From: Spirogloea muscicola
Lineage: Eukaryota; Streptophyta; Zygnematophyceae; Spirogloeales; Spirogloeaceae
Assembly (NCBI GenBank): GCA_009602725.1
Contig: WELB01000018.1
Span: forward strand, 240,434 to 304,433
Reading direction: 5' to 3'
DNA length: 64,000 nt
The stretch's first letter is position 1. Each line of letters opens with the position of its first letter. The notes beneath the pieces are model-generated. The model did not search any database, was not told the origin of the DNA, and saw nothing but the letters and a program-made list of their open reading frames with translations. This document shows positions 3,789-46,798 of the stretch, in pieces. The position numbers and the translations under genes are program-made.

Positions 3789-6700
3789 ATGGTGCAGCCG
3801 CGCGAGGTGATCGCGGTGGCCGTCGGCAGCGACCGCGCGTCGTCCCGGGAGGCCGCGCAGTGGCTCCAGCGCGCGGGGCTCTACCGCCGCGACCGCGGCG
3901 ACAAGGTCTTCCTCGTGCACGCCGTCACCAAGATCAACATCTGTGAGAGGCCCCGCGCCTCTCCCGCACTCTTGCCGCCTCTCTGCAGCCTCCCTGACTG
4001 GCGGCTGCCGTCTATCACCGATGTGATTTACCTCGTCACATAGCCATCTGCCGATGGCCCACATTTGCGTCATGACACTCGCAAGCTCGTTCAGAGGTCC
4101 CTAGCAAGGCCCCTGAACATCTGCAGCTGCTGACTCGCCCCCCGCTGCTCACAGTGGGAGCCAACTGCCCCGTGGCTAGCGCCAACAAGATGCAGCTTGC
4201 TGGGTACCTCACCACCTTCGTCGCGCCAATGCTGCACAAGTACCGTGCCGACTTTGCGGCCGTGCAAGTGCGCACACCACCAGTGCCGCCCCCTCTCCTA
4301 GCGCTGGAGGGATGTGCGGTGCGCAATGCAGCCACTGACAGTGGCCTCGCGTGCAAAGACGACCTGGCCGCATCTCTCCCATGGCGCTTCTGAGGCGCCC
4401 GTCCAGTGTCTCCCGTGCTCGTCTACAGATCCCTGTGGAGCCGAGGCCAGTGTGCACCGAGAATCGCGCCAAGGGCATCGTGGCGGAGGCCAAGCAGCTG
4501 GGTGCCACGCGCCTCGTCATGGTTGCTAAGCAGTCCACGTTTTTGAAAAGGTCAGACCCCAAACTGACCATCTTAAGTACGCGTGGCCAATTCCAGAGCC
4601 AGTGCAGATACCCAATGTGCCTGCACTCTTGTGATCCTGCACATGGTCCTGATAAGCAGCTCTGTTGGCACTTCCGTTGACAAAGTAGCCTTGTTTGCAC
4701 ATTCTACTCAATGGTGGCTTGGGTTTGCACACATGGCAGGCATGGAGCAACAGTGATGTACTGTGGGCTGCACCGGCCAGAAACCTGCTGCTTGTACGCC
4801 ATCCAGGGCGGGCGTGCTGTGCAGGAACTGCCAGCGCTCGCCGACTCTGCTTCAATTTTGGCGGAGCTAGAAGACGCGTCCACAGCCAGCAGCCCAGCAC
4901 CATCCAATAGCAACACTGTGGGCAGCCCAACAATATCACGGACGTCCTCTGTCATGTCTGAGGTGTCCCTGCCAGGTGCGGCATTTAGCTGGTTCTAGCG
5001 CCAGCACGCGGCAAGAACAGCTCAGCGCTTCTTATGTGATGGAAGCACAGTGCTATGCATGGAGCGTTCCTTGACTTTTTTCCTGAATCGATGGTGAAAT
5101 GCTGGTGCTCTGTATGTTCTGTGCTGCGTCTGTACAGGTTCATTTGTTGGCGAATTTGGGTCCTCCTTGGACTTCAATATGTCACCTGCCAGGGGTCCTC
5201 CTGTAACCCCTGGAGCGTTGCCTAGATGCAGCGCTCCCCCGCTGGCAAACTCGCCAGCGGGGAGCTTGTACCCTGTCATCAACACCCTGCACTACGGGCA
5301 GGACCTGCCGGCGGCGAAGCCTGACGCAGGGCTGCTCAACAGCAGCAGCTCGTCGCTTGGGTCCACGGCGGAGCTTTCAGACTGCCAGCCCACCGCTCCG
5401 CCAGTGTATCAAGGCTTTTCCACGGAGATTGAAAGACTGCAGCAGCTGCGAATGCAAGCTCCCTCTGAGCCCCCATCGCTTATGGGTCTGTACAGCCCTC
5501 TGCCAAGCCTCCATGATCTGACAGCCAGCTCAACAGCAAGCTCAACACCACCCAGTGCATTTCCGGCGCACGTCACTCCGGAGCCCGCCCTGTCGCCGTT
5601 GCGCATGTTGCCTCCGACCTCAACACCCCCGTTGAGCCAACCCCCGTTGAGCCACCTAGATGCGGGGCTGGGCTCAGAAGACTCGCTCTGGGCACAAGTC
5701 CAATCCTACTACTCTCAGCAGGTATGCCTTCAATCCAACAAAGGTCCTCAACAGATCGTTTAATGTGTTAATAGACTCAATGATATTCTTTCTCACAGCA
5801 ATTTGTGTGCCGCCGCTGAATGGCACCAATCCTTTCTCATGGCTTCATCAGAAGCAGGAGATGGAGAGGGCGCTCGCCCGTGCAGCGCAGGCAGAGCTGG
5901 AAGCCAACAAGCTCCGTCGGGAGGCTCTTGAGCAAATGGAGCACAGGCGGCGTGCAGAGGAGGCGGCTGAGTGCGCGCAAGTGCTGGTACAGCAGCTCAA
6001 TATCTCCTCCACCATCCTCTCAGTGATGTGACTTTTAACCAACGTGCCGCACTAGGATGATACATATGATGAAATATTTGGACCAAGCATGAGGGATGCA
6101 CTCCTACATCCATTCAAGAGAGTCGGTCATTTTTCAACGACATTAGAGCCCTTTAGGACAGCTCAGAGTACTCGGCATTCCTGGCCTCATTGTGCAGGCC
6201 AAGACCCAGGAAGACCAGATTGCAGCAGCCATGGAGCGTTCCAAGGAGGCGACGCAGGCTGCAGAGGAAGCGCGGCGGCTGGCCGAGGAGGAGAGCCGAA
6301 TGCGCATGGAGGCCATGGCGGCTGCGCGGGCCGCACAGACGCTGGCTGAGAGCCAGGCGAAGCTGCGGGAGGAAGCTGAAGCGCTCGCGCAGAACACCCG
6401 GCAGGAGCTCCTCAACTCCCAGCAAAGACACTACCGCACGTACACGTGGGAGGAGCTCCAGGTGCTTGACATGTCAGCCTGATGATATGAAGCTTGGGTT
6501 GACCAGGGTGATCCAAGCACTTCCCTATCTAGTTTTCCAATATGCATAAGCAACGAGCACTTTGACTTCTCCAGTAGGGAGGCCTGAGCTCCAAGTGCCT
6601 GAATCTTTCCAGGCTGCTACGGACAAGTTCAGCGAGAAGCACAAGGTTGGGGAGGGCGGGTATGGCTGGGTGTTCCGAGACAGGCTGCACCATACAGACG

Positions 6701-8688
6701 TTGCCATCAAGGTCCTCAAGAGCACAGACGCTATTGAGGGAAGGTCTGAGTTTCAACATGAGGTACTTCTGAACATCATGTGGCCTTTGGTAGTGACTCT
6801 TACAGCTTTTCACTTCCGGCATTAGTTTGTATCAGACAGTGGAGCGTCTCAATTAATATGTCAAAGCTGACTGACGGTCACTGTCGAGACTGTCAGGTGG
6901 AGCTGTTGGGCCGCATTCAGCACCCCCATCTGGTCATGCTTCTGGGCTGCTGCGTCGAAGTCACAGACGATGGCTCGTGCCATTTCGCAATAGTCTATGA
7001 CTATTGCGCCAATGGAAATCTGGAAGAGCACCTGACTGGTCAGGCAGCCCTGCCATGGTACACCAGGATACGTGTTGCAGCAGAGGTATGGGAACACATG
7101 CCTTCGATCACTTACTTTCTCTTTCGTCCTGTAATTACAGATCGTGACAACTATGGCTTCCGTAAAGCCCTGGGTGTATAAGCATGTCTGGTGGTCATAT
7201 ATACCTGGCATTGCAAAAGCTGGCCGGTCACTGATTCTAGCTCCAGCATGTAGGCATGTCAAGATGACCTTGCAGAAGTAACCTCAAAGTGCTTTGCTGA
7301 CGCGATTGCTCACAAGACTTTGGCGTGGGTGCACATGCCGCCAGGTCACGTCAGCGCTTGTCTTCCTTCACAGCAACAATCCGCCCATCGTTCACAGAGA
7401 CCTGAAGGCAGCAAACATTTTGCTGGATCAAAACTTTGTGGGGAAGCTTGCGGTGAGCTGTCTTTGGAGAAACTGCTGACATTATATTTATGCCCTGGTT
7501 GGTCAAGCCCATGTGGATGTCTGATGTCTTCAGTATTGATGCTGATGGAGGCCCTGGTTTCGGTTGCAGGATGTGGGCATGGCGGAGCTCATGCCGGGCA
7601 TCGCTGGCCAGCTGACGATGCGGACGCACGTGACACAGACCCATGCGGTCGGCACACTTGCATACGTGGACCCCGAGTTCTATATGACGGGCCGGTGGGG
7701 CACCAAGTCTGATGTCTACAGCCTCGGGGTTGTGCTTCTCCAGCTGCTGACCGGGAAAGTCCAGGTTGTATATCGAGACCTTTGTTCCTTCTAAGATCGT
7801 TCCACATTTTGAGTCCCTTCGATGTAGTCTGGAAAAGTTAGTCTGTCTCTATATGTGCCCCAGATCGAGAATAGGGTCATTGTGATTTTCCCTTGCCCAA
7901 GAGATGACAGCTGCTGCTGCACGTGCGGGTCAGGTCATGGACAAGGTGGAAGACCCCGTAAAGAGGGACAATCTGGAGAGCGTCCTGGACCCGGCGAGCG
8001 GCACGTGGCCCCGCAGTCTTGCGCTGGAGCTTGCTCTTCTTGCGCTTGAGTGTGTGACGATGCAGCGCAAGGACCGTCCAGAGCTTGCAAGCGTCATGGC
8101 TCGCCTCGACGCCCTCCGCACGACTGCCAAGGAAGCCGCTGATAAGGAGGCGCCTGCACAGCGCACTTTCCCGCTTGCCAGCAGTTTCAATGCGTACTTC
8201 TTGTGCCCTATAATGCAGGTAAGGAGCAACATCTCGAGACTTCCTCAGGCTTGACCTCTGGAAGTTGCTGCGTAGGTACTTGAATAATGACTGGTAACTT
8301 GCATCGTCTCATTATGAGTGACGAGATGTTGATCTGGCATGACTGGTACATCACTAGCGACAGCTTGTGAACAAAATTTGTGGGACCTTGGCATTAGGCT
8401 CAAAACAAATACTGCAAACAAATTGGTGAATTTAACGGAGAATTGTGCCCGTGCTCTCAGGACGTAATGCGAGATCCTGTGCTCGCGGCTGATGGCCACA
8501 CGTACGAGCGCGTGGCCATTGCCTCGTGGCTGACCAGCAATGATACGTCGCCCATGACGAATTGTGAGCTGCCGCACAAAACGCTTATGCCCAACTATGC
8601 GCTGCGGAGCATGATACAGGACTGGAAGCTCCGGAGAGGGCAGGAGAGCAGCAGCCGCCAGCCTCCATTGGCCAATGGTCGCCAATAG
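3789..8688 (+). CDS. USP domain - kinase - U-box E3 ligase (plant PUB class), intact
   Basis: A U-box E3 ubiquitin ligase fused to a universal-stress-protein-like domain and a receptor-like cytoplasmic kinase. Exons 3789-3942, 4155-4267, 4429-4550, 4740-4975, 5138-5721, 5852-5986, 6198-6461, 6613-6762, 6897-7085, 7345-7452, 7570-7764, 7934-8218 and 8461-8688 join in phase to about 920 aa (acceptor 7904 would add 10 aa). Order: USP fold (VIAVAVGSDRASSREAAQWL), Ser/Pro-rich linker, coiled coil rich in Ala/Glu/Arg, and kinase with glycine loop GEGGYGWV, VAIK lysine, HRDLKAANILL catalytic loop and DVG in place of DFG (usual in this family), then GTKSDVYSLGV. The C-terminal U-box reads FLCPIMQ-DVMRDPVLAADGHTYER...SPMTN. 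A degenerate paralogue lies at 23329-27186. Substrate unknown. Confidence 0.88.
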
Positions 8689-9559
8689 CAGCCCGAGATC
8701 CGCAAACAATTTAGGTCAGACTTTAAGTTACTTCTGTGGGTGGTAATCCAGCCTTCTCCCGCATGCTCACAAGCTCCCATGCCAACTGCTCTTAGTGAGC
8801 GCTGATTGCCTTGAGCCTCTTTGGCATCGCCGTTGCTCATGAGCGTGCCGCGCTTCCTTTAGAAGCCCGTACATACAACCTTGTCATCGATATACCTGAT
8901 TAGTAGACCAGTCTGACATTTTAGTATCACATCGTTCACTGCGGCTGGTGAGGAATAACCTCGCCTCGTGGGCTTCACCGCGCTGACCATCACAAACAAA
9001 GACTGTCCATTATGCCATATTGACATACTGAGATCGCCTGTCTGCCCACAACATTCACACAGTGCTTGTTGCCAGCTTGTTCTACTTGTGGACATTGACT
9101 CGCGGATCATCTTCTCAGCCCGTCAGATTCGCCCAACTGCAGAGTCATTGACCGGATGCATATACGCCACTTACATTTGAAGCTCTTGACTGTAGTTTCT
9201 AAGCCCTTGCCTGGTGTACCGCTCTGTGGCTTGGAGCATAAAAGATGGTCTGTCAATAAGATTGAGTCCTTGAGGATTGAGTTTATGGAATGCTTTTAGG
9301 ATTAGAAAGAAGAGATTGTCCCACTATATCTGCAGATACTATTCACACGTCCTCTCAACTGCAGGCTTGTGCCCTTTCTGCTATTAATATACATCGAATT
9401 GTTATGACCCTCAGCTGTGCTCTGTGTATGTCCAGCATCCATACTGGAGAGGCAAAGGCCTCCCTCTTCACCAACGTCCACATCACCTTGTTCCTTCTTC
9501 AACGCCCCTCTTGCCTGTTGCACTCAGCTTGCTGCTCTCCTATCGCCCTCTGTGATGCT
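8689..9559. other. intergenic region, no gene seen
   Basis: 3' flank of the U-box gene. Only short unsupported reading frames; no homology, RNA gene or repeat was recognised. Confidence 0.45.
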
Positions 9560-9564
9560 GCTCG

Positions 9565-9650
9565 CCTTACTGTCCATTCCTTTGGGCTGGCCTTTCCCAG
9601 CCACCAGTCAATCTGGCCGCGCTCTTCTCTGGGAAGAAAGCGGCTGCTGA
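9565..9650 (+). mobile_element. LINE/SINE-like tail, 'family B' hairpin
   Basis: The stretch from GTCCATTCCTTTGGGCTGG through CAGCCACCAGTCAATC to GGCCGCGC recurs at 10800-10860 and inverted at 54165-54225. It holds the GGGCTGG...CCAGCC hairpin common to the other tails in this window. Confidence 0.5.
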
Positions 9651-11131: not shown

Positions 11132-12065
11132 NNNNNNNNNNNNNNNNNNNNNNNNNNNNNNNNNNNNNNNNNNNNNNNNNNNNNNNNNNNNNNNNNNNNN
11201 NNNNNNNNNNNNNNNNNNNNNNNNNNNNNNNNNNNNNNNNNNNNNNNNNNNNNNNNNNNNNNNNNNNNNNNNNNNNNNNNNNNNNNNNNNNNNNNNNNNN
11301 NNNNNNNNNNNNNNNNNNNNNNNNNNNNNNNNNNNNNNNNNNNNNNNNNNNNNNNNNNNNNNNNNNNNNNNNNNNNNNNNNNNNNNNNNNNNNNNNNNNN
11401 NNNNNNNNNNNNNNNNNNNNNNNNNNNNNNNNNNNNNNNNNNNNNNNNNNNNNNNNNNNNNNNNNNNNNNNNNNNNNNNNNNNNNNNNNNNNNNNNNNNN
11501 NNNNNNNNNNNNNNNNNNNNNNNNNNNNNNNNNNNNNNNNNNNNNNNNNNNNNNNNNNNNNNNNNNNNNNNNNNNNNNNNNNNNNNNNNNNNNNNNNNNN
11601 NNNNNNNNNNNNNNNNNNNNNNNNNNNNNNNNNNNNNNNNNNNNNNNNNNNNNNNNNNNNNNNNNNNNNNNNNNNNNNNNNNNNNNNNNNNNNNNNNNNN
11701 NNNNNNNNNNNNNNNNNNNNNNNNNNNNNNNNNNNNNNNNNNNNNNNNNNNNNNNNNNNNNNNNNNNNNNNNNNNNNNNNNNNNNNNNNNNNNNNNNNNN
11801 NNNNNNNNNNNNNNNNNNNNNNNNNNNNNNNNNNNNNNNNNNNNNNNNNNNNNNNNNNNNNNNNNNNNNNNNNNNNNNNNNNNNNNNNNNNNNNNNNNNN
11901 NNNNNNNNNNNNNNNNNNNNNNNNNNNNNNNNNNNNNNNNNNNNNNNNNNNNNNNNNNNNNNNNNNNNNNNNNNNNNNNNNNNNNNNNNNNNNNNNNNNN
12001 NNNNNNNNNNNNNNNNNNNNNNNNNNNNNNNNNNNNNNNNNNNNNNNNNNNNNNNNNNNNNNNNN
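11132..12065. other. assembly gap (934 N)
   Basis: Run of N. Any apparent reading frame across it is meaningless. Confidence 1.
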
Positions 12066-12573
12066 GTGCGGAGATTCGGCGGAAACGTGCGACAGCGGAG
12101 CGCCAGCTCGGCGCTCCGCCTGCCGCAAGGCGGGAGCAGGTGCGCGCCGCGGTGGTGGACGAGAAGAGAAGCAAGGCAACTGCTCCCACTCCCACTGCTT
12201 GCGACTGGCTTACCGAGCGCAGGCGGCCCGGGCAGGGCGGGCGCGCCCGCTCTGGCGCCGCCGCCGGCGGTGGCACGCGGACGCGCAAGCGCAAGGCCAC
12301 TGCGAGTGTGCTGCACGAGCACTGCCGGCTGCAGAGATTCCGCAGCCACTTGCGACCTGCCTTCTTCGACGCAACCTCCAACCTGCAAGCTCGCGCTGCG
12401 AGGAGAACAACAGCGGCAGTGCGTCAACGCTGGCGCTCGCATGGGGGTGCAATCAGCAACTGCGGGTGGCTGCCACAAGCGCTGCACCGCGTACGCCGAG
12501 GGCATAGCGGGCACGCCGCCAAACAAGCCCGCCATGAGTTGCTGACTCATCCTGTGCCTGCAGGGACTTTGCA
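12066..12573 (+). other. GC-rich possible exon sequence, unidentified
   Basis: Plus-strand frame open from the gap edge (AEIRRKRATAERQLGAPP, later TRTRKRKATASVLHEHCRLQ). It is rich in Arg, Ala and Lys and runs into the triplicated unit that follows. No family was recognised. It may be the 5' part of the plus-strand trihelix gene copy whose body begins at 13083, but no ATG is visible because of the gap. Confidence 0.3.
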
Positions 12574-13082
12574 GGCGGCTGGACCGGCATTCAGTTGCAC
12601 CGCCGATTCCTGAACTCAAGCAAAGAGCACTGCCGCTCTCCCAGGTATGTTTGCACGCGTTGTGTCGACAGTGTGCAAGCTTTGCGAGCGTGCCAAGTCA
12701 TGCCCGCCCGTCCGTTGCTGAGCCAACTTGTGGCTGGATGGATTTTGCAGCTGGACCGGCCTTCAGTTGCACCGCCGATTCCTGAACTCACGCAAAGAGC
12801 GCTGTCGCTCTCCCAGGTATGTTTGCACGCGTTGTGTCGACAGTGTGCAAGCTTTGCGGGCGTGCCGAGTCATGCCCGCCCGTCCGTTGCAGCCAACTTG
12901 TGGCTGGATGGATTTTGCAGGCGGCTGGACCGGCGTTCAACTGCACCGCCGATTCCTGAACTCAAGCAAAGAGCACTGCCAATCTCCCAGGTACTATTGC
13001 ACGCATTGTGTCGACAATTTGCATGCCAAGTCATGCCCGCCGTCCGTTGCTGAGCCAACTTGTGGCTGGATGGATTTTGCAG
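12574..13082 (+). repeat. tandem triplication of a small exon plus intron (about 155-175 bp unit)
   Basis: Three head-to-tail copies begin at about 12574, 12751 and 12921. Each carries a 66-71 nt block from GCTGGACCGGC to a TCTCCCAG|GTA donor-like end. A segment of about 85-107 nt follows (gtatgtttgcacgcgttgtg in the first two copies, gtactattgcacg in the third) that ends in ATGGATTTTGCAG, an acceptor-like end. The pattern is that of a duplicated exon-intron unit; whether it is translated is unknown. Confidence 0.7.
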
Positions 13083-14904
13083 GTACTGTGTTTCAGCCTC
13101 AACTGGCGACTCCTACCTTGGCAACAAGTCCGTGGCTTGCCCTGGGTCCTCCTTCATCAACGAACTCAACGCCCTCATGCCCGCCCAAGAAGTCAGCATC
13201 TCGTTGTGGCAATTCAATCAAAGCCAAGCGGATCAACCTTGGGACCTTCGACGAGGTTGTAGAGGAAGTCAAGGCGCCGTGGAGCAAGGACTGGACTGTC
13301 ACGCTCATTCTGGCGAAGCAAAGCCACGATCGTAATCATGACAACAAGGCACATGTCCAAGGTATGTAGTGTCTATGCGCTAATGCAATGCTCTTGAAAG
13401 TCCGAGTGTGATCTTAGAAGCTTCCCATGCCGAGCTTATGCTATGGAGGATCTGTCTCTTTAAAGGGGGTGCTTGTATCACCTTGACTTATCTTGTGTTG
13501 TGTGCTCAGTGTGTACTGTGTCTTGCCGATGTTGTCATCTACTTTGCACCATGTTATGTACTGTGTGGCTCTTGAGTGTGCTCTTGGTCTGTGTATCCTA
13601 TGTATTGTGGATTGTGATGCAGAGATCTGTCAATTGGTGACAGGGTCTCAAGACAAAATGTAGGTCTCCATCGCCAATCACATCACCGCCGCGCACCCCA
13701 CTTTCCTCAAGGATCCACAGGCATGCAGGCAAAAGCGGAAGCGACTACTTGCCCAATACAAGACCGAGTTCGCACTGAAGAATACATCCGGTGAAGGTAC
13801 AAGAGAGGAGTGGGAGTACTTTAATCTCATCCATGAAGATATGGGACGCCGTCCTGTGATGGAATGCAAGTATCATGCAGATGCATCGGGCAGCCAAGAG
13901 CTACCCAGTGTCACATTCGAGAGTGGCCAGACAAAGAGCAGGAGTCCCAAGCACAACGACCAGCCAACCAACCCAGAAGCTCCGTCGGCTCAGGAGAAGG
14001 ATCTTCTGGGTTGGTTGGCTGGTCGTTGTGCTTGGGACTCCTGCTCTTTGTCTGGCCACTCTCGAATGTGACACTGGGTAGCTCTTGGCTGCCCGATGCA
14101 TCTGGATAATACTTGCATTCCATCACAGGACGGCGTCCCATATCTTCATGGATGAGATTGAAGCACTCCCACTCCTCTCTTGCACCTTCACCGGATGTAT
14201 TCTTCAGTGCGAACTCGGTCTTGTATTGGGCAAGTAGTCGCTTCCATTTTTGCCTGCATGCCTGTGGATCCTTGAGGAAAGTGGGGTGCTCGGCGGTGAT
14301 GTGATTGGCGATGGAGACCCACATTTTGTCTTGAGACCCTGTCACCAATTGACAGATCTCTGCATCACAATCCACAATACATAGGATACACAGACCAAGA
14401 GCACACTCAAGAGCCACACAGTACATAACATGGTGCAAAGTAGATGACAACATCGGCAAGACACAGTACACACTGAGCACATAACACAAGATAAGTCAAG
14501 GTGATACAAGGACCCCCTTCAAAGAGACAGATCCTCCATAGCATAAGCTCGGCATGGGAAGCTTCTAAGATCACACTTGGACTTTCAAGAGCATTGCATT
14601 AGCGCATAGACACTACATACCTTGGACATGTGCCTTGTTGTCATGATTACGATCGTGGCTTTGCTTCGCCAGAATGAGCGGGACAGTCCAGTCCTTGCTC
14701 CACGGCGCCTTGACTTCCTCTACAACCTCGTCGAAGGTCCCAAGGTTGATCCGCTTGGCTTTGATTGCATTGCCACAACGAGAAGCTGACTTCTTGGGCG
14801 GGCATGAGGGCGTTGAGATCGTTGATGAAGGAGGACCCAGGGCAAGCCACGGACTTGTTGCCAAGGTAGGAGTCGCTAGTTGAGGCTGAGACACAGTACC
14901 TGCG
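13079..14904. repeat. foldback: about 900-bp inverted repeat with 25-nt spacer
   Basis: Left arm 13079-13978 and right arm 14004-14904 are reverse complements with only scattered differences. The centre reads GACCAGCCAACCAACCCAGAA - 25 nt - TTCTGGGTTGGTTGGCTGGTC. Both arms carry the same two exons and intron of a trihelix-type gene. A transcript through it would form a hairpin of about 900 bp. Confidence 0.92.
13083..13978 (+). pseudogene. trihelix-type DNA-binding gene fragment, left arm (nonsense mutation)
   Basis: Exon 13083-13361 (FQPQLATPTLATSPWLAL...FDEVVEEVKAPWSKDWTVTL) is followed by a GT-AG intron (13362-13643) and an exon from 13644. The second exon carries the helix CRQKRKRLLAQYKTEFAL. 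In this arm the Trp codon in the QDKMWVSIANH block is TAG, so the frame stops; the right arm has TGG. The W...W, CRxKW and YK pattern suggests a trihelix or SANT/Myb-like DNA-binding domain (Myb_DNA-bind_4 type). The 3' end is lost at the foldback centre. Confidence 0.6.
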
Positions 14905-15254
14905 GGCCATGGCGGCAAAGTCAGGGCTGATTGTGCACCTTGAAGAGGGAGCTTTGTGGAATCGTTGCAATGGCTGATGGCCCCTTGTGTACAAGCTTGG
15001 ATGGGGGGGATGTGAACGACACACAATTGGTGCTGGAGGAAGCCAAAAGACACACATGTCGGTTGTTGCAGATTCACAAGCGGAGATGGTGCCGAAGAGA
15101 TTACCAGAGCGCGTGCAGGACCTTGCGCAATGATGGTCGCCGGCAGAGGCAGCGCAACGCCTTTCTCGGGCGAGGGTTGAGGAGATGACCCCGAGCTGAC
15201 CAGGTCGTCGTCCCCGCCTGCACCCGAGCACCAAGGCAGGCGCATCGCCATGGC
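13911..15254 (-). pseudogene. trihelix-type DNA-binding gene, right arm copy (truncated at foldback centre)
   Basis: Minus-strand gene. A possible N-terminal exon starts at an ATG near 15254 (MAMRLPWCSGAGGDDDLVSS), with Ser/Pro-rich sequence down to 14905. Then come the arm exons: APWSKDWTVPLILAKQ before the intron, and GSQDKMWVSIANHI, FLKDPQACRQKWKRLLAQYK and EEWECFNLIHEDMG after it. The three helices with Trp anchors fit a trihelix/SANT DNA-binding domain; PIF/Harbinger transposons also encode a protein of this type. The frame crosses the foldback centre and ends at 13911 inside the other arm, so the natural C-terminus is missing. The copia element sits just upstream (15368-15372 target site). 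Confidence 0.5.
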
Positions 15255-15372
15255 TTCCCCGCCTCCTGCTGCGCGGGGGAGCTCGGCCCGGGGAGGGTGG
15301 CCAGGCGGGGGATGCCAGGCGGGGGAGCGCACAGGCGGGGGAGCGCAGAGAGGGCAGGCGGGCGAGGAGCCC

Positions 15373-15650
15373 TCTTGACTGACGACATCTTGGCCTCGGC
15401 TGGCCATGTGGATCGCGAGGAAGGCTGTGCGACAAGAGCGACGGGGAGACCAGCCTCAGCGCTCGACAGCGGCGGCAGCGGTGGCGGCGGCGCGTTGCAG
15501 CGGCAGGATGGCGTGCAATCTCAGATTGGGATCCCAGCCGGTCGATACAAAGGGTCGCGGCCGGCCCAGATAGGCCAGTGTGACCGCTAGGTACCGCTAG
15601 GCCAAATGTGACCATGCAAGAATCTGACGTTTTGGCATCTCCTTTCAACA
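15373..15650 (-). repeat. copia 3' LTR
   Basis: 278 bp. On the minus strand it begins TGTTGAAAGGAG and ends GTCAGTCAAGA. Same-orientation copy of 20610-20888. Confidence 0.92.
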
Positions 15651-17759
15651 CTCTCACCTGCCAAATGTCAGATTCTGCAGCGATATGACTACTCTAAGCC
15701 AGCTCTGATGTTTTGAGTACTGAAGCATGCAAGCTCATCCACACACATGCGAACCCACAAGAGAGACATGGCCATGAGAGGGGGATTCTTACCCTCCATC
15801 TCAGGCACTTCACATACACTGTGTTCACCCCTTTTGGGTATTTGAGGACTGAACTAGCCCCATGCCTCTGACACAGAACATGTGCTTGTCACGCGACACT
15901 GCCTTCGTCAAGCAGTCTGCTACCATTTCTGGGTCGGCGCAGAGCTTGAACTGCACCACACCATCATCTACTAGCTCACGCACCTTGTGCAATTTGATAT
16001 CAAAGTGTTTTGTGCGGGCATGATGGACTGGATTGCGAATGAGCGCCAGACTGCTAGTGCTGTCAGTGTAGATTGTGGTAGGATTGACCTGTGCTTGCAG
16101 AAGCTCTGCTAGCAGTCTTCTCACCCACACGGCTTCACAGGCTGCGCTGAAAGCGGCAGTGTACTCCGCTTCGCAGGTAGATGTCGCTACTGCTGGTTGC
16201 AATTTTGACATCCATGAGATGGCTCCTCCTGCCAGAACGAACACGTATCCCGACGTCGATCGACACTTCTCCTCTCCTGCAAGATCGGCATCCACAAATG
16301 CATACGTGCTGAATGTTTGTTCGATATGCAATTTGCTACCCTCCAGGGACGCAGCAGAGCATGATCCAGAGAACGAAGACGACCTGCGCAAGCCCTTATC
16401 AACAGTTGCCTGAGACTGTGACAGAGGGGCCTGGTTGTTGGCGGCCACGATGGAGGCAAGAACGACGGCCTCCTGCGCCGAGTACTCCAAGCACCAGTCC
16501 AATGAATGCTGGACATAGCGCAGAAGGCGTTTGACTGCCTCCCAGTGCTTTGGGCCAGCATTCTGCTGATGCTGAGCTAGCTTGTGGACGGCCAGCGCCA
16601 AGTCAGGCCTGGTGCCCATGGCTGCATACATGATGCAGCCTACTGCTTCTCTGTACGGCACTCCCTGCATGAGGTTCTTCTCTCGCTGACTCTGGGGGTT
16701 GTCTTCTTCGGTGAATTTGAACTTTACTTCCAGAGGCGTAGAGACCGGCCTGCAGTCCTCCATGTGGAATCTTTGGAGCACTCCCTTGAGGTACTGCTGC
16801 TGCCCCAATCACAACTTCCTCTGCTGCCTGTCCCTGGTCACCTGAAACCCCAACAGGTAAGCAACCTCCCCCATGTCCTTCATCTCAAACTCTCTTGACA
16901 GCATTTCCTTCACCTCCTGCAGCCTTGTCATGGACTTGCTGAGCAGCAGAAGGTCGTCCACATACACCGACACAATGACCTCTTGCCCCTGACCACCGGG
17001 TAGCATGTACAGGCTTTCATTGTTGTTGCTTCTCTTGAATCCCGCTTCCTGCAATGCTGCATCGAGTCGCGTGTTCCAAGCTCTCGGCGCTTGTTTCAAT
17101 CCATACAAACTCTTCTTCAGCTTGCACACGTGATTGGGAAACTCTGTCGATCTGTACCCCTCGGGTTGTTCCATGTACACTTCTTCCTGCAAGCTGCCAT
17201 TGAGAAATGCTGTCTTTACGTCCATCTGGTGTATATGGTAGTCTTCCGCTGCTCCTATGGCCAACAGAGTTCTGATTGTTGCAAACTTGGCTACTGGGGC
17301 AAAAGTCTCGTCATAGTCCAGACCCGCTATCTGGCTGTACCCTTTCGCCACTAGTCTTGCCTTGTATTTTCAACATTCCCTTGCGCGTCACGCTTAACCT
17401 TCAGCACCCACTTACAGCCCACCACCTTTCTTCCCTTCGGTAACTGAATTAACTCCCATGTCTCATTTTTCTCTATCGACTGTATTTCATCACTAGCAGC
17501 CTTCTCCCATTGTGCCGCTTCAGAACTTGCCCTTGCCTCCGCAAGCGTGCGGGGCTCCTGAGGCTCGTCTACCGCTGCATACAGACTCTGAAAGACTGCA
17601 GCCTTTCCACCTATCCTAGCTGATCTCCTGGGTCCTTCCATCGTCTGTGACTCTTCTTCCAAGAGTTCTGGCTGCTGAGGCTCCGTCACCGGACTCTGCA
17701 TTTCTCCTACCGTCTCTTGCACCTCGTCCACCACTTCTTGGTCCTCTGGCACCTCTATC

Positions 17760-17985
17760 ACTTCTTGCTGCTGGACTGGCTCCTGAACTCCCACCGTGGC
17801 TGGCACATCCATCACTTCTTGCTGCTGGACTGGCTGCTGAACTCCGACTGGCTGCTGAACTCCCACCGTTACTGGCACCTCCATCACCTCTTGCTGCTGG
17901 ACTGGCTCCTGAACTCCCACCGTTGCTGGCACCTCCATCACCTCTTGCTGCTGGACTGGCTGCTGAACTCCCATCGTCGCGTTAG
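17760..17985 (-). repeat. tandem repeats in copia integrase C-terminal region
   Basis: Repeats encoding variants of VGVQEPVQQQEVMEVPAT lie between the integrase core and the reverse transcriptase; at least four imperfect units. Confidence 0.8.
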
Positions 17986-19024
17986 AGAACATTGGCTGCA
18001 CAATTGCAGGCCAACCAGCCACCCACATCTGCTGCTGGTCTGGATCGTTGACTCGAGCAGGTCTCCCCTTCTCCTGCTCAACAGATATTACATCTCGGCT
18101 GACAATCACCTTTTGTAGGATAGGGTTCCAAAGCTTATACCCCTTTTGCTGACGCCCCCAGCCAAGGAAGGTACACTTGACACTCTTCGCCTCGAGCTTG
18201 TTGCGCAGCTCCGCGGGGATGTGGGCATAGGCAACACAGCCAAATTCTCTCATCTCACTGACGTCCGGCTTCACCCCCGACCAAGCCTCCTCTGCCGTCA
18301 CCCCAGCGACACCTGTCGTGGTACAGCGGTTGTGCATGTACACTGCCGCCTCCAGAGCGTACGGCCACCACTACTCTGGCACCTCCATGGTCAGACACAT
18401 TGTACGCACCTTCTCCAAGAGCGTTCTGTTGAGACGCTCGGCAACTCCATTTTGCTCGGGAGTGTACGGCGTTGTTAGCTGATGTACAATACCCCTGCCC
18501 TCCAACTCTTGCATGAAGCGCCGCGAAAGGTGCTCTCCGCCATTGTCACTTCGAAGCACGCCAACTCTGCTCTCTGCTTCTCGTTCTACCATTGGGCGGA
18601 ACCGTTGAAATGCGTCCAGGACCGCCGCCTTGGTGTGCAGCAGGTACACCCACACCTTCTTTGTAAAGTCGTCGGTGAAGCTGACGAAGTACCTCTCCCC
18701 ATTTACCCCCTCCACTGGCGCAGGCCCCCACACATCACTGTGGATGACATGAAGTTTGTGTTTAGCCCTATTGTCAGACTGGGGAAAAGGCAAGCAGTGT
18801 TGCTTCCCTAGCAGACACCCATGACAGACGCCCAGTTTCTCGCCATCCTGAAAGTTCATTCCTGTCACAGTCCCTTCCCTTTCAACTTCTTCAGGCCTTG
18901 TTCATGGAGATGTCCCAGCCTCCTGTGCCATCTCATCAGGCTATTCTCCCTGTGCTCCTCTACCACTGTTGGAGATGTATCGCGAACAGTGAATGCAGAT
19001 ATATTCACCGGATGCATGCCCCTT

Positions 19025-19348
19025 CGGGATTTGTGGAGCGTGGTCACCTGGGGGGTCCCCTCGCATCTCAGGGGTAGAGTCGATAGCGCTTGTGCCCGAC
19101 TCGTCTCTCGGGCGGGAGGCGATAGGTCCTCATGTTGAAGGACGCGCTCCCCGACAAGTTGAATCTGAGAATCAAGAAGGCTGAGATGCGACTTAGGCGC
19201 AGCAGAACCAATCATAGACCCATCCCTTGGTTTGTGGAACGTGGTCACCTCAGTTGTCCCCTCGCATCTCAGGGGTGAAGGCGATAACGCTTGTGCCCAA
19301 CTCGTCTCTTGGGCGGGAGGCGATAGGTCCTCATGTTGAAGGATCCAC
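19025..19348 (-). repeat. internal duplication in copia pre-integrase region
   Basis: About 121 bp at 19025-19147 is repeated at 19227-19348 in the same orientation (both encode LQHEDLSPPA.ETS.AQALS), separated by about 80 bp. The frame stays open across both. Confidence 0.8.
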
Positions 19349-19913
19349 AGATCGTCTTCTTCCACGCCAATCGCCCCAATTTCGCCTGTCATGCGGTCTT
19401 TGACAAATAGAATTTCATCAAAAACTTCCACCATGTTGCCTAGCCTTGTCACCCGCTTCAGCGAGAAGAGATTGACAGCCATGTCTGGCACAAAGAGCAC
19501 CTCTTGTAGCCGCCCGCTCTACCTTCTTGTTCCCAACCAGCATTACAAGGTCTACACTTCCCTTGCCTTGTACAGGGAGGGTGTACCCATCGCCAAAACG
19601 GATGTGGCCTCCTGCTGCAACGAGATCACTCACCCACGCCTTATTGTGAGTAATATGCATGGTTGCGCCACTGTCCATTACCCACCGCCGCGACTCTCTC
19701 CTATCCATGGTCACCTGTGTGGTCACACAGTACGTCTGAGACCCTGGAGGTGTGTTTCTACTTCTCCTGCTGTGTACGCAGTCCCTCGCCCAATGCCCTT
19801 GCTTGCCGCAGTAGTTACAGACGTCCTGCCTTCTTTGGACTCTCTGTGTACTTGGCTGCTGCTGCCACTGCTGCTGCTGTTGCTGCCAGGGCTGCTGCTG
19901 CTGCTGCTGCCAG

Positions 19914-19972
<59 letters not shown>

Positions 19973-20597
19973 GCGCACATAGAGAGCATTATCTTCTACC
20001 AAGGACTCTCTACGGTCCCACTGTCTCTGGAGGTCCTCAACACCCTGCAGCCGCTCTACGCAATCATCAAAGGACAGAGGTGGTCTGTAGGTTTGTAGCG
20101 TCTCCATTGTCTGGTGGAATCTCGCCGGAATATTGTGGAACAGGTGGGCCAGCAGCATGTCTGGAAAGATGACCTGCCCTGCGTCAGTCAACTCCTGCGC
20201 CTTGCTACGCATTCTTTGGGCATATGAGGTCACCGACTCTGTGGGTCCCATCGTCATGTTGGCAAAGCTTCTCAGAAGAATGCTGATGCTTGTCTGTGGA
20301 GTCTTCCCGTACTCCTTGCAAATAACATCCCAAGTCTCTGCAGCCGTCTTCTTCCCCACCACCAGCTTCAGCTGCGCGGAGTTGAGGCTGCATTTTAGAA
20401 GGTAATGGCAGTGCGTCTGCCTCCGCCTGTACTTCTCCAGCGCTTCCGAGGCAGCCGCATCGTCGTCCTGCGGCTGCGGCTCTGTTTCTGTTCCCCGTAG
20501 GATGGCCAGCAAACCAAGGTGGTCCATGGCCAGCTCCACCATGTCCTTCCAGATGAGCCAATTTGTACCGTCGAACTGTCGCAGGCCCTCGAGGCCT

Positions 20598-20609
20598 CCT
20601 CTGATACCA
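20598..20609 (-). other. primer-binding site (initiator Met tRNA)
   Basis: Minus strand TGGTATCAGAGG directly follows the 5' LTR. It matches the complement of the 3' end of initiator tRNA-Met, the usual copia primer. Confidence 0.88.
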
Positions 20610-20888
20610 TCTTGACTGACGACATCTTGGCCTCGGCTGGCCATGTGGATCGCGAGGAAGGCTGTGCGACAAGAGCGACGGGGAGACCAGCCTCAGCGCT
20701 CGACAGCGGCGGCAGCGGTGGCGGCGGCGCGTTGCAGCGGCAGGATGGCGTGCAATCTCAGATTGGGATTCCAGCGGGTCGATACAAAAGGGTCGCGGCC
20801 GGCCCAGATAGGCCAGTGTGACCGCTAGGTACCGCTAGGCCAAATGTGGCCATGCAAGAATCTGACGTTTTGGCATCTCCTTTCAACA
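20610..20888 (-). repeat. copia 5' LTR
   Basis: 279 bp, about 98% identical to 15373-15650. Minus strand begins TGTTGAAAGG; the inner end AAGA abuts the primer-binding site. Confidence 0.92.
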
Positions 20889-20984
20889 AGCCCCTCCTCC
20901 CTCCTCCCTCCTCCCTCCTCATCGAGTTGAATCGACACATTTTGGCGCGCGGGGGCGCGCGCGTGTGCGTGGCATGCGTCGATT

Positions 20985-21500
20985 GGCTCCGCCGCCATCT
21001 CCGAAAACAGCGTCGCGTACCGGGGTCTACCCGACCATCCGGCGGAAGACGAGTTCTTCCCGTTGGCAATTGACATCCATGGGGCTCTGGCGCTCGGTGG
21101 CTTGAGCTACTTAACCAGCTCGCCCGCCACGCAATCGCCCGTCGCTTCCATGGTGAACCGGTAGACTTTCCTGCAGCCAGGTCGCTGGCGCAAGTGTATC
21201 GCATGCGCTTGGCCGTCTCGCTGCAGAGGTCCATGGCCCGTGCGCTGCACCTTCGTGCCGGGAGAGCCCTCGCTGCTGCCTCTGGCTCTGTCCAGGGGAC
21301 CCACTTCCAGACCCTAGCCTCTCTGATTTGCGGCTGCTTAGCAGGGGTTACTGAGTAATTTGTAGCTGCTTTCTTTCTTTGTGTGCTTTGGTTTCTTAGC
21401 GCTTCCTCTGGCTTCCTCTGGCCCCCTTCTCGTTCTTTGTTCATTCTTTTTTGGGCTGGCTTGTCCAGCCCCTATCCTCAATGGGCGAGCCCTTTCAATT
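20985..21500 (+). mobile_element. LINE 3'-end fragment, 'family A', plus orientation
   Basis: Plus strand holds DEFFPLAIDIHGALA (part of the endonuclease-proximal region) and, after a frame change, YRMRLAVSLQRSMARALHLR. The terminal block gatttgcggctgcttagcag (DLRLLSRGY then TGA in frame) ends at 21352. The UTR has AGCGCTTCCTCTGGCTTCC, then hairpin GGGCTGGCTTGTCCAGCCCC at about 21453-21472, then TATCCTCAATGGGCGAGCCC. It lies next to the copia target site. Confidence 0.75.
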
Positions 21501-22029
21501 CAAGTACGAAATCCGCGCCCACCGCACGCAAACGGCGAGTCACGGTGTCAAACGGGGGGCCAGAGTGGCAAACGGTGGGCCGCGTCATCGCTTCACGTGC
21601 GCTGGCGTGGAGGGGTGGGTGACCGGCGCGCGACCTCCAGTGAAACGGGTCTTTTCCACTCAGCGCGCGACACCTCAGCTCGACCTCGACCTCGACCTCG
21701 TCCCCGACCGCCGTGGGAACACTACGTTATTCTGACTTGCACTTGGTGAACACCAACTTGCTGACGTCTTGGAGACTAGTAGCCTGCTTTTGGCGCATCC
21801 GGCCCCTTCAGGCCTTGCAAATTCCTGTGAGTTGGCCTCTCCCTGCCATTGCCATTAGATGGAAGAGCGCTTTCCTTGTTGCTGTAGCCCTTTCATGTAG
21901 CCGTACTTTTTGCACTAGTTTCTGCTTGAACAATGTTTTTGGCTTGAATTGGCCTACTTATGTTCCATGCTCACCGCGCATCCTCCTACTTGCTGACACG
22001 AGGCAAAAGAAGTGTGTATCGGGGGACGG

Positions 22030-23328: not shown

Positions 23329-26300
23329 ATGGCGCCGCACTGCGAGGTCATCGTGGTCGCCGTCGGCAGCAACCCCTCGTCGTCGCGCACCGCCGCGCAC
23401 TGGCTCCAGCTCAAGGGGCTCTACCGGCGCGGCGACAAGGTTGTCCTCGTCCACGTTATCACCCAGATCCCCAACGGTGAGAGCAGCCCGCCTCCTCCAC
23501 CAGTAGGACCTCCCTGCCTTCCAGCTGCCATGGTCACTAACATCGACATTACTGCCACCAACCCACTGAGTGCCTTCATCTTGAGGCACTTAATAAGTAG
23601 ACAGCGTTGTGAGCGTTCCACGCGCTGGTGCCTGCCTGCAGGCAACTGCCCCGTGGCCACCGCCACCGACGAGCAGTTTGATGAGCACGTCAGTAACGTC
23701 GTCATGCCGATGCTTGGCACCTACCGCGACGACTTTGCTGCCAGGAAGGTGCGCGCACCCCACCTTTTCGTTACTCTTTTATCGGCTGCATGGCGACACC
23801 AGAATGCGTTGACAGTAGATTGCACTTAAAATTACGAGGCAAGTACACAATGCTATGGAAACCTGGCCGCATTGCATACCGTGTTCCCACTGAGGCGAGC
23901 TCCAGCCACTTTTCCATGCATGCAGATATGTGTGGAGCTGCGGCCAGTGCGCAGCGAGAACCGCGGCAAAGCCATATGAAGGAGGCCAAGCAGCTGGGCG
24001 CCACGCGACTTGTCATGTTTGCCAAGCCCTCCATATCTAAGAAGTCAGTCGTTGTTCGAGCATTGAACCACTGCACCTCATGTCTTGCTCCGCACGCTTC
24101 TGGAAGCATCTCTGTCAACGTTGCCGCCTGGGCAGTGGCCGTAGCTCAGAAGCAAGCCTTCTTGTTGACAATTCCCGCTCCATGTCGCAGAATATGTGCA
24201 ACGGTGGAGTACTGTGGAATGCATCGGCCATACAACTGCTGGTTCTACGCCATCCGAGACAAAATTTCTGCAGTGCAGGAGCTGTGCCCACGTGCTCGAC
24301 CTGGACAATCGTGCGCCAGGGACACCTCATTCTACAGGCAGGACCGAGCGGCTGTAAACCATGGCACAGGGTCGCAACCAAGAAGCAGCAGGTTGCCGGA
24401 GTCCGCAGGAGAGCTCCCAGATTGGAATCCCACTGCTCCACCACCGTACCAGACGTTCTCTGACGAGGTGCACGGCAGCAGCAGCTAGGATGACGAGCAC
24501 CCTCCGCAGCCCCAACGATGTGATGTACTTGTACTTGCTCCTTCTAAGCGTCCATGCGTTCTGGCGAGCTCGATCCTGCCCAGTCTGCTCTGGTCTACTC
24601 ACTTCCTCACCCCAATCTGCAGCCCTCTCCTCTGCGTTGTCTCCTCCATGACCCAGGCAGACCAACTCGCAGCGGCCTTCGAACGTTTCAGTGAGGCGAT
24701 GGAGGCTGCCAAGAAGGCCTGGTGGCTGGCTGAGGAGGAGAGCCGGCTGCGCATGGAGGCCACTGCGGTTGCCCATGTGGCGCAGGCGCTGGCAAAGAGC
24801 CAGGCGAGGCTGCAGGAGGCTGCGGAAGCGCTCGCGCAGAACGCTCGGCAGGAGCGTCTCAACTTGCACCAGAGGCGGTATCGGACATACGCTTGGGAGG
24901 AGCTCCAGGTGCTTGCACTAAGCCAGCCAACAGGACGTGAACCTAGAGAGGGGCCGGAGCAAGTGTACAGAGGCATACAAAAGCATTGCTACAGCTTCTC
25001 TCCACCGTAAGTAAGCAAGTTGACTTCCCGTCGGCAGAGAGGTCTGAGCGTCGACTGCCTGATCCTTTCAGGCTGCTACGGAGGACTTCCGCGACAAACT
25101 TGGCAAAGGTGGGCACGGCTCTGTGTACCGCGGAAGGCTGCACCACATCGAAGTCGCCGTCAAGGTCTTCAAGAGCATGGACAGCCTCGAGGGCGAGACG
25201 CAATTCCACCACAAGGTACTTGCCAGAGGCACCAATGTGAACCTCCACTTGCATAGCTACAGGACACCTTGCACCTTGTCGATGCTGGCAAGTGCACTTA
25301 GCCTGCGACACTGGCGTAACCGTTGCATCCACGCAATGTCAGGTGGGCCTGCTGGGGCGCATCCAGCACCCCCACCTCGTTATGCTCCTGGGCTGCTGCA
25401 CCAAAGTCACAGCCAGTGGGCCATGCCGCTTTGTCATAGTCTACGACTTCTGCGCCCATGGGAACCTGAAGAAGCACCTGTCGGGACCAGCGGCCCTGCC
25501 ATGGTACACCCGAGTGCGCATTGCAGCAGAGGTGTGAAGCAGACCTGCTGCCAACTTCAGAAGTCCTCTCTCTTGTCCTGCTGCCTGTGCGGCGGCGTGT
25601 GGTAACGAAGTCACTCATGGCCTCTTATTGACCTGAAAGTCGGCGTCCTCCTGCTGCTGTGTTGCCAATGTCACTGTGTTTGGCAATATGTTCTGGTGAT
25701 GTGATATATTGGCTTGCGGCCACTGACATATACTTTGTAGGGGAGGCTTCTCAAGTACACCAAGCAGCAATTGCATTCAGCGCTCTCGCATGGACTTCCA
25801 CCCGTAATTTCTCGGACTGTGTGTACTTGCTGCAGGTCACATCGGCGCTTGTTTTCCTTCATAAGAACAACCCGCCCATCGTCCACTGAAACGTTAATTC
25901 AGCCAACATCCTGCTCGACCATAACCTCGTCGCGAAGCTTGCTGTGAGATGCACGTGCCAGATGCTCATTGACGCCGCCAATTGCATGCAAGTTTCATTC
26001 TCAACAGTCTAATGACTAGTAGTTATTATTACTGAAGTCAGGCAAATGCATATAACAAAGAGCTTGTGCAGTACAAAAGATTGTTGAGGTGGTGAGTCTT
26101 GGTGGAGGCCCTGGTTCCATCTGTTACAGGACGTGGGCATAGCAACGCTTATGCCAGAAAGGACCAGCGAGCTGACAAGGCAAACACATGTAGTGGAGGA
26201 CCACGGGGCCGTCGGCACGCTTCCATACGTGGACCCCGAGTTCTACTCGACGGGCCAGTGGGGCACCAAGTCCGATGTCTACAGCCTCGGCATTGTGCTC

Positions 26301-27186
26301 CTCCAGCTGCTCACTGGCAAAGTCCAGGTTGCGCATCACAGCTTTCTTGATAGATTCCAGCGACATAGAAAATCCACTTGACCTATTTGGGCACAGTGTC
26401 GGGTGGATACCAGAGTTCAGTTGGCGTACATGCCCAGAACTTTACCTTCGCTTTTAAGCACACAAGCCTCAACAATATACACACGTGGGCGATGTTGTCT
26501 CGTGGCTCAGATCTCAAAGCTGGTGCAGGGGGTGCTGCGCAGATCAGGGACAGGGTTGAGCGAGCAGTGCAGCAGGAAAACCTGGAGAGCGTCCTGGACC
26601 CGGCTGGTGGCGAGTGGCCTTGCGATGTCGCGCTGGAGATGGCGCTGCTAGCGCTGGGGTGCGCTGCGATGCGGCGCAGGGAGCGGCCAGAGCTCATCAG
26701 CGTCATGGGTCGTCTCGATGTCCTCCGCGCGACTGCCAAGGAAGTTGCCGAGAGGGAGGCGCCTGCCGAGCGCGGGCCGCACCTCGCCACCGACATGATC
26801 AGCGCTTGCTTTTTGTGCCCAATCACGAAGGTTCCACCCAAAAACTGAGACAATAAACTCGCCAGAAATCTTAGTAAGAGGCTGGAAGTTGCTGATGGGT
26901 TGTCAGGATCACTTACCAGATGTGGAAAGTACCATACCATGGAGCTGGCAGTCGGCCCTAGGCAATTACCCACTTACGCTCCTGATTGCGCGCATGCTGT
27001 CAGGAAGTGATGAAGGAGCCGGTGGTCACGGCCGATGGGCACACGTATGAGCGCGATGCCATCGCCAGGTGGCTGAGCGAACGCGACGTGTCGCCCATGA
27101 CGAACTGCACGCTGCTGCACAAGGCACTCACGCCCAACCACGCGCTGCAGAGCATGATCAAAGAATGGCAGCGCCGCAGTGGGTGA
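23329..27186 (+). pseudogene. second USP-kinase-U-box gene, decayed kinase
   Basis: Paralogue of 3789-8688 with the same exon order: 23329-23476 (USP start MAPHCEVIVVAVGSNPSSSR), 23642-23748, 23926-24043, 24191-24467, coiled coil ending 24908, 25072-25215 (LGKGGHGSVYRG, VAVKVF), 25343-25531, 25836-25943, 26130-26327, 26543-26830 and 27004-27186 (U-box EVMKEPVVTADGHTYERDA). Two lesions are seen. A 1-nt frameshift lies near 23976 in the USP exon (GCCATATGAAGGAGGCC against GGCATCGTGGCGGAGGCC in the intact copy). At 25887 the catalytic loop HRDLK has become H-stop-N-V-N, so Asp and Lys are also lost. The linker is shorter and the linker exons corresponding to 5138-5721 and 5852-5986 were not found. 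Splice sites and U-box look preserved, so decay may be recent, or a truncated product may persist. Confidence 0.8.
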
Positions 27187-30384: not shown

Positions 30385-31560
30385 CAGAGGAAAGTGCTCG
30401 CCCATTGAGAAGAGGGGCTGGAAAAGCCAGCCCACAAAAGAATGAACGAAGCACGAGAAGGGGCCAGGGGAAGCGCCAAGGAAAACAAGCACATCAGAGC
30501 GCCTCCATTGGGAGAGCCACTTAGTTTGGAACAGCTTCTTCCACCTGAAGGCAACGGTGGCTGTGACTACAGACAGACTCGAAGAAGAAAGGGCTCGCCC
30601 ATTGAGGATAGGGGCCAGCCCAAAAAAGAATGAACAAAGAACGAGAAGGGGGCCAGAAGAAGCCAGAGGAAGCGCTAAGAAACCAAAGCACACAAAGAAA
30701 GAAAGCAGCTACAAATCACTCAGTAACCCCTGCTAAGCAGCCGCAAATCAGAGAGGCTAGGGTCCTGGAAGTGGGTCCCCTGGACAGAGCCAGAGGCAGC
30801 AGCGAGGGCTCTCCCGGCACGAAGGTGCAGCGCACGGGCCATGGACCTCTGCAGCGAGACGGCCAAGCGCATGCGATACACTTGCGCCAGCGACCCGGCT
30901 GCAGGAAAGTCTACCGGTTCACCATGGAAGCGACGGGCGATTGCGTGGCGTTGCGTGACAGACTCGCTACCCGGATATTACTTTCCCTGACCTGCGGCTC
31001 GGCTGCTCAACAGAGAGAAGGGCTCGCCAGGGGTCATTGAGCACCCGGCGGCCACTTGAGTCGCTGTGTGCTTGAGCGCTTTTCTGGCCCCTTTTGACTT
31101 TGTTCATTCTTTTTGTGGGCTGGCCAATTTCCAGCCATCGCCCTCTACTGGAAGAGTCTTTTCTCTCCTTCCAGGAACATAGCCTCTCTGACCTGCGACT
31201 GCTTAGCTGGGGTTACTGAGTAGTTAGTAGCTGCTTTGTTTCTTCTTGTGTGCTTCTTTCTTAGTGCTTCGCCTTAGTGCTTCGCCTGGCCCCCTTCTTC
31301 TTGGGCTTCCTGTACTCTGCTCATCCTTTTTTGGGCTGGCTGTTCCAGCCCCTATCCTCAATGGGCGAGCTCTTTCTTTCTCTCCCTTTGAACTTCGTTC
31401 ATCCGCTTTACTGACCGTCCGAGGGAGGACGAGTTCTTCCCCATTGCCATCAACGTCCACGGGGCGTTCGGCGCTTGGTGGCTCGAGCTCCTGCACCGGC
31501 TCTCGCGCAGCACTGTGTCGCGATGTTAGCACAGGAAGCAGGCTGACTTCAACGCGGCAG
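30385..31560. mobile_element. LINE 3'-end fragments upstream of the E2 gene
   Basis: Minus-oriented family A tail at 30388-30480 (GCTCGCCCATTGAGAAGAGG, hairpin GGGGCTGGAAAAGCCAGCCC). A second minus copy at 30588-30960 keeps the UTR, the DLRLLSRGY-stop block (stop near 30725) and frame remnants. A plus-oriented end at 31085-31385 has the stop at 31218, UTR and hairpin GGGCTGGCTGTTCCAGCCCC. A plus-strand internal fragment DEFFPIAINVHGAFGAWWLE lies at 31430-31490. Confidence 0.7.
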
Positions 31561-46290: not shown

Positions 46291-46798
46291 CTCCTTCAAC
46301 ATGAGCAGCCGCATTTGATTTCCTCTTATCCCACAAGAATCAAAAAGTGAGCTCTTCCAAAACAAGGCAGTGGCTATGGAATGCCAGCGCCAAGGATCAC
46401 ACCAAGAATCACACTCCGTAGCTCCCACTTTGCGGGCTCCTCACAAGAGGTCACTAAGTGATTGTCCTCCCGGGAAACCGCTTTGGGAAAGCGCTTCTTG
46501 GCCCCTTCGGACCTTGCCAATGTTATTCGGGCTGGCTGTTCACACCGTAAGTGGTGTGAATGAGTATTATTCACTGTCGGTTGCTTTCTAACAATCTCGT
46601 TTAGATGCCATTTAATGAGAGCTCAAAGGCTTCGAGCTGCTGACGGAAGTACTTGTCGATACGATGAAGAGCTTACCAGTGAATGCTTCACATCCTGTTG
46701 CATGTGCACTTTAGTTTGGCCTGCTTTTGTCTAGGTGGCTTCCAAACATATGCTCAACTATGGAAGCTCACCACATGCACCACATACATGTATTGAAG
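46291..46798. other. intergenic region, possible tail relic
   Basis: One degenerate GGGCTGGCTGTTCACACCGT motif near 46528; otherwise nothing recognised. Confidence 0.4.

Follow-up and report, generated by a model that had tools for sequence, protein, structure and literature searches.

Structure of the locus

The window, by which we mean the whole 64-kb stretch of Spirogloea muscicola DNA that was analysed, contains a large palindrome lying within a transposon copy that has itself received two later insertions. Along the forward strand, the features are as follows (strand in brackets; a point where none applies).

11132..12065 (.): assembly gap (Ns), in which the element's left end should lie
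12066..13082 (+): Harbinger element, left part; at least 22 matching stretches genome-wide; tandem units at its end
13079..13979 (+): left arm, the inverted one; + sense copy of the 5' half of ORF1 (Myb/SANT)
13362..13622 (+): ORF1 intron, left-arm copy, 261 bp, GT..AG
13911..14495 (-): open frame with ORF1 exon 2; Myb_DNA-bind_4 (PF13837)
13980..14002 (.): spacer (loop), 23 nt; extends ORF1 from the left arm, in the orientation opposite to the loop of sister copy C57
14003..14903 (-): right arm, in the original position; - sense 5' half of ORF1, running on into its own 5' flank
14360..14620 (-): ORF1 intron, right arm, 261 bp, GT..AG
14904..15372 (-): ORF1 5' flank and right part of the element, common to sister copies; at least 19 matching stretches
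15373..20888 (-): Copia element, an insertion within the Harbinger copy; matches to RVT_2 and to integrase core
20889..21036 (+): Harbinger element, right part, resumed after Copia; found in sister copies
about 21037..21503 (.): second insertion, a dispersed repeat, interrupting the Harbinger element's right part; borders approximate
21504..21726 (+): Harbinger element, right terminal part; ends ...CCGTGGGAACACTACG, then target TTA (21727-21729)

The foldback of about 900 bp claimed in the preliminary description is present at 13079-14903, with arms of 901 bp each (13079-13979 and 14003-14903). Used alone, the repeat finder reported arms of 908 bp (13079-13986 and 13996-14903, 98% complementary, with 9 nt between them); we trimmed these to 901 bp because comparison with C57, a related copy on another contig, places the innermost bases of that alignment in the loop. 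By the same comparison, the spacer (13980-14002) measures 23 nt rather than the 25 nt given at first. The arms mismatch at 19 of 901 positions, which are evenly spread (KS test, P = 0.91); perfect arm-to-arm runs extend to 161 bp, and 12 of them are at least 21 bp long. For a 1825-nt transcript of the foldback, the computed fold has 893 pairs and an energy of -1876.2 kcal/mol. This is the sole near-adjacent inverted repeat of at least 60 bp that a blastn self-search revealed in the window.

Each arm carries a 261-bp GT..AG intron, and the locus does consist, as had been proposed, of two inverted copies of a two-exon, one-intron fragment. Because the intron is kept in both arms, the duplication took place at the DNA level and not by way of an mRNA, which also agrees with the earlier interpretation. 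The left arm meets the tandem units at a 4-nt sequence common to both, GCAG (13079-13082).

The Copia element is bounded by a 5-bp target duplication, AGCCC (15368-15372 and 20889-20893, read by eye), and its 3' LTR (15373-15650) faces into the palindrome. It also contains tandem repeats near 17692-17971 and, judged by eye, a gag-like frame rich in Gln. The dispersed repeat occurs in both orientations in the window, at 21033-21496 (in the Harbinger copy), 30581-30950 and 46795-47255. Elsewhere in the window, 6199-8640 and 24646-27183 are colinear, diverged direct duplicates (about 70-78% identical) and probably represent a duplicated gene; the pair appears kinase-like by eye, and the single frame tried gave no Pfam match. 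An open frame at 51694-52311 matches pectinesterase (PF01095, E = 8.7e-09).

The host element

No host element was named in the preliminary description. We found that the foldback sits in a DNA transposon whose family makes 3-bp target duplications, and that remnants of the inversion occur elsewhere; very likely, it represents a rearrangement within a PIF/Harbinger-type transposon, the window copy being non-autonomous. DNA searches of the genome from which the window comes (471 contigs, 153 Mb) returned at least 10 matching stretches for the arm, at least 22 for the left flank and at least 19 for the right flank; the genome holds about 20 related copies of the element. The outer ends of the family are fixed (CCCCCCCTTCTCACGAAAAGG on the left, CCGTGGGAACACTACG or CCGTGGGAACAGGGCG on the right), and its terminal inverted repeats are poor: CCCCCCCTTCTCACG against CG...GTTCCCACG, the right-end complement, plus a GGTCGAGG repeat (by eye). 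In six + strand sister copies, the left terminus (CCCCCCCTTCTCACGAAAAGG...) lies ~90 bp to the left of the base matching 12066; in the window copy, the left end and left target duplication should fall within the gap of Ns. The tandem units at the end of the left part (about 12553-13082) are ~172 bp long, each with an exon-like block and splice-site-like borders, and C72 has more such units than the window.

Ten copies have both ends in hand, and in eight of these the flanking triplets, read by eye, are identical (C112b TCA, C130a AGA, C1 AAA, C19 ATG, C8 TCT, C130b TGG, C5 AAA and C47 TAA); the triplets of the remaining two do not match (C18b TTG / CAA, C204 TAT / TGA). The right end of C57 was looked for and not found. 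The target of the window copy is also present without the element, with TTA occurring once (...CTCTAC-TTA-TTCTGA), on C26 and C11; in this empty-site search, 40 of 586 candidates were scored, and the flanks are 86% (C26) and 91% (C11) identical. Since C11 also matches the window at 8938-9586, on the other side of the element (81%), this locus represents a related region rather than a stray repeat. The long right-flank matches at C26:752600-754600 (L073) and C11:628400-630400 (L074) lie among many short repeat matches, and the two are consistent with a triplicated genome. Two element copies, at C88:560860 (L018) and C5:1485329 (L019), have an identical left flank, so that one insertion seems to have been duplicated together with its surroundings.

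The window copy has neither a transposase nor the 3' half of ORF1. Sister copies C72 and C112a each combine the left part, a transposase piece, an ORF1 piece and the right part in one copy, the right part of C112a amounting to 147 bp only. A 621-bp transposase piece, as in C5, is present whole or partially at eight loci. Compared with loci of this genome that bear DDE_Tnp_4 (six loci searched), the C5 transposase fragment gave a match of 51% over 79 aa (E = 1e-23); with Pfam alone, the C5 transposase fragments fell below the cut-off or had no match. Searches of the species' own genome recovered no whole parent element.

Palindrome remnants in sister copies and authenticity of the inversion

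Remnants of the palindrome are found at three places: in the window, C57 and C19. In C57 the inverted copy resumes at the same base as in the window (CTTCTGG, opposite the upstream CCAGAAG). The loop of C57 is 51 nt long and extends ORF1 from the right arm, whereas the 23-nt loop of the window extends it from the left arm. The inverted arm of C57 extends for ~180 bp; the next 872 bp partly match (75-83%) the surroundings of the DDE_Tnp_4 loci on C198, C138 and C161 (L064, L066 and L061), so that C57 is a mosaic that includes sequence of a related element. In C19, 190 bp of the inverted arm remain; the centre has been replaced by 232 bp, and the turning point is absent. As C57 and C19 both retain inverted-arm remnants, C57 with the same turning point, the palindrome is probably common to the three copies by descent. 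The argument for a single origin draws mainly on the junction shared by the window and C57, as C19 lacks the turning point and C57 is a short-armed mosaic; the loop, moreover, is inverted between the window and C57, so that an exchange between arms is needed. A phylogeny of the arms across loci, based on 21 variable rows that begin at position 707 and in part belong to the loop, is too weakly informative to prove a single origin; position 707 groups both window arms with the left arm of C19, weakly. As to the parent gene envisaged in the preliminary description, when up to three mismatches were allowed, one match in the genome ran past the turning point, but this is C57 itself, and no straight-running parent, that is, no other ORF1 continuing beyond that point, was found.

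Palindromes are a classic artefact, and the gap of Ns ends 1 kb to the left of the foldback, which would suit an assembly or library artefact such as a hairpin chimera or a misjoined inversion. We nevertheless consider such an artefact very improbable. Relative to the right arms of C57 and C19, 13 of the 19 arm differences fall in the right arm of the window and six in the left (at one of the 13, ORF1 position 744, the right arm shares its base with the short arm of C57). Both arms have thus changed independently, which disfavours recent homogenisation as well as an artefact. In addition, parts of the inverted arm survive on other contigs, in C57 (with an identical turning point) and in C19. 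The collapsed or artefactual inversion that the preliminary description had allowed for is made unlikely by these observations. The two LTRs of the Copia element differ by three bases and one gap over about 280 (98-99% identical), against 19 of 901 for the arms; the palindrome probably predates the Copia insertion, on these small numbers.

The duplicated gene

The open frame containing exon 2 matches PF13837 with E = 5.3e-07, above the gathering score; when the intron is removed, the exons join in frame and the match improves to E = 1e-07, above the family cut-off. Myb_DNA-bind_4 is a Myb/SANT-like domain of the trihelix type. According to PMC9921582, PIF/Harbinger elements need two proteins, ORF1 and a transposase, one of them with a GT1/Myb-like/SANT domain, which accounts for the 'trihelix' label used in the preliminary description: the domain is indeed of trihelix/Myb-SANT type (PF13837), but the gene is that of a transposon (a PIF/Harbinger-type ORF1) and not a host locus. 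In a PDB search with exon 2, gastric intrinsic factor was matched twice, weakly (E = 0.0099 and 0.01); both matches lie outside the Myb domain and were attributed to chance.

Genome-wide, we found 24 matches to the ORF1 protein, nine of them in the window, C57 and C19 copies and 15 elsewhere. Eight of the 15 distant matches (C249, C84, C51, C49, C48, C209, C184 and C116) have a DDE_Tnp_4 match within 1.2 kb, there being 51 DDE_Tnp_4 matches in the whole genome; in all of these loci other than C116, ORF1 and DDE_Tnp_4 are arranged convergently, as in the window's Harbinger family. Matches outside the family are 30-50% identical.

The Myb_DNA-bind_4 domain would also suit a host trihelix transcription-factor gene, of which the palindrome would be an inverted duplicate and so an incipient microRNA or silencing locus directed against that host gene. 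We rejected this reading, to which we give hardly any credence, as the gene belongs to a transposon family: the element around it has 3-bp target duplications, and both the DDE_Tnp_4 matches adjoining its distant relatives and the low identity outside the family weigh against a host gene. Least probable of all, and likewise rejected, is a Foldback-type transposon in which the arms would be the terminal inverted repeats, a structure that the long inverted arms and short loop recall, since beyond each arm the element continues to different ends, with their 3-bp duplications, and C112a, C112b, C130a and C72 carry ORF1 pieces without an inverted arm.

Proposed origin of the palindrome

For a palindrome formed by rearrangement inside a PIF/Harbinger-type element, mosaics among the sister copies suggest a parent in which a rightward transposase gene followed the left end and a leftward Myb/SANT ORF1 came next, before the right end. 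In the ancestor of the palindromic copies, the transposase portion of the element and the 3' half of ORF1 would have been lost, an inverted copy of the 5' half of ORF1 taking their place. Judging by the junctions, the likeliest route is interrupted repair synthesis. The new strand would have run from the right end through ORF1 and snapped back at the inverted CCAGAAG/CTTCTGG; ORF1 would then have been copied again and joined to the left part at the 4-nt GCAG. In the genome search, sequence past the turning point was found in C57 alone, and for this reason we can only infer the snap-back step. In the lineage of the window, the loop may afterwards have flipped through exchange between the arms and lost 28 nt. 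The presence of palindrome remnants at three places is consistent with mobilisation by the transposase of another copy.

Silencing potential

If the foldback is transcribed, the likely product would be a hairpin RNA directed against ORF1 of its own family, and transcription could start in the ORF1 5' flank, in the Copia LTR or from the left. Silencing of ORF1 by hairpin RNA, in the manner proposed for Mu killer, is a plausible hypothesis. That the foldback gives rise to small RNAs is a real possibility, though one that we would place somewhat below an even expectation, and it is doubtful that such small RNAs, if made, matter. An active locus of this kind, in which hairpin RNA is cut by Dicer-like enzymes into small RNAs that silence the family's ORF1 and so immobilise the family, appears unlikely, although several observations would suit it.

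The 901-bp duplex contains 12 perfect runs of at least 21 bp, and exact 21-mers of the arms recur in six other ORF1 fragments, where they make up between 43% (C112b) and 90% (C72) of the total (C57 556/910, C19 422/802, C112a 311/379, C112b 117/270, C130a 100/121 and C72 74/82). Two candidate promoters, the ORF1 5' flank and the Copia 3' LTR, face the palindrome from the right. PMC9921582 states that mobility of PIF/Harbinger elements requires both ORF1 and transposase. In a six-frame search across introns, which matched individual stretches rather than whole genes and in some cases stretches interrupted by stops, we found Piwi-domain matches at four loci (three similar and one other) and paired RNase III domains at three loci, which represent three Dicer-like loci. 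For the same species, PMC7994812 lists three DCL2/3/4 copies and three AGO1/5/10 genes, with which the counts found here agree. No RdRP match was obtained in the genome; control genomes likewise gave none, so this null result is uninformative.

Against an active locus, ORF1 may have been separated from its promoter by the Copia element, which inserted 469 bp upstream, and the differences between the arms bear no sign of the arms being held together. Searches with the arm, both flanks, the sequence past the turning point and the transposase piece returned no intact element that could serve as a target. The hairpin model of Mu killer has itself been questioned, according to PMC3440606.

A further reading is that the palindromic derivative was spread by the family's transposase while making hairpin RNA against the ORF1 which that family needs. 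This presupposes that both element ends were kept, as the pattern of the family suggests, and we regard it as unlikely; if true, it would represent a self-limiting 'travelling Mu killer' in a green alga.

Relation to known systems

The textbook example of transposon silencing started by a rearranged copy is Mu killer, and the comparison drawn with it in the preliminary description is apt, both loci being deleted transposons with an inverted duplicate of part of their own gene. Mu killer is a MuDR derivative of maize which, like the element described here, is internally deleted and carries a partial inverted gene duplication; a hairpin RNA has been proposed for it, and its centre could not be sequenced (PMC3440606). 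In contrast, the window element is Harbinger-type and not Mutator, the duplicated gene is ORF1 and not the transposase, two different ends are kept (the left one inferred), inversion remnants exist at three loci, and silencing is here a prediction.

Target duplications of 3 bp are typical of PIF/Harbinger elements. Ping/Pong and their relatives, as described in PMC9921582, share with the present family a DDE_Tnp_4-type transposase and a GT1/Myb-like/SANT ORF1; the window copy differs in lacking the transposase and half of ORF1, and its family differs in having ends that are weakly inverted repeats and targets that are mostly not TTA or TAA. Plant microRNA genes are proposed to originate by inverted duplication of a gene fragment, giving a sequence that forms a hairpin. 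The foldback resembles this model as an inverted gene-fragment duplicate able to fold as a hairpin, and departs from it in that the source is a transposon gene and the long arms both contain the intron. In the literature searched, no paper joins Harbinger with Spirogloea and no title concerns the window locus.

How transposon silencing first begins is an open question. If no small RNAs arise from the foldback, it would be an ordinary transposon rearrangement. A second, independent example, from a different superfamily of transposons and from an alga, whose junctions can be read, would allow the model to be tested with one small-RNA library.
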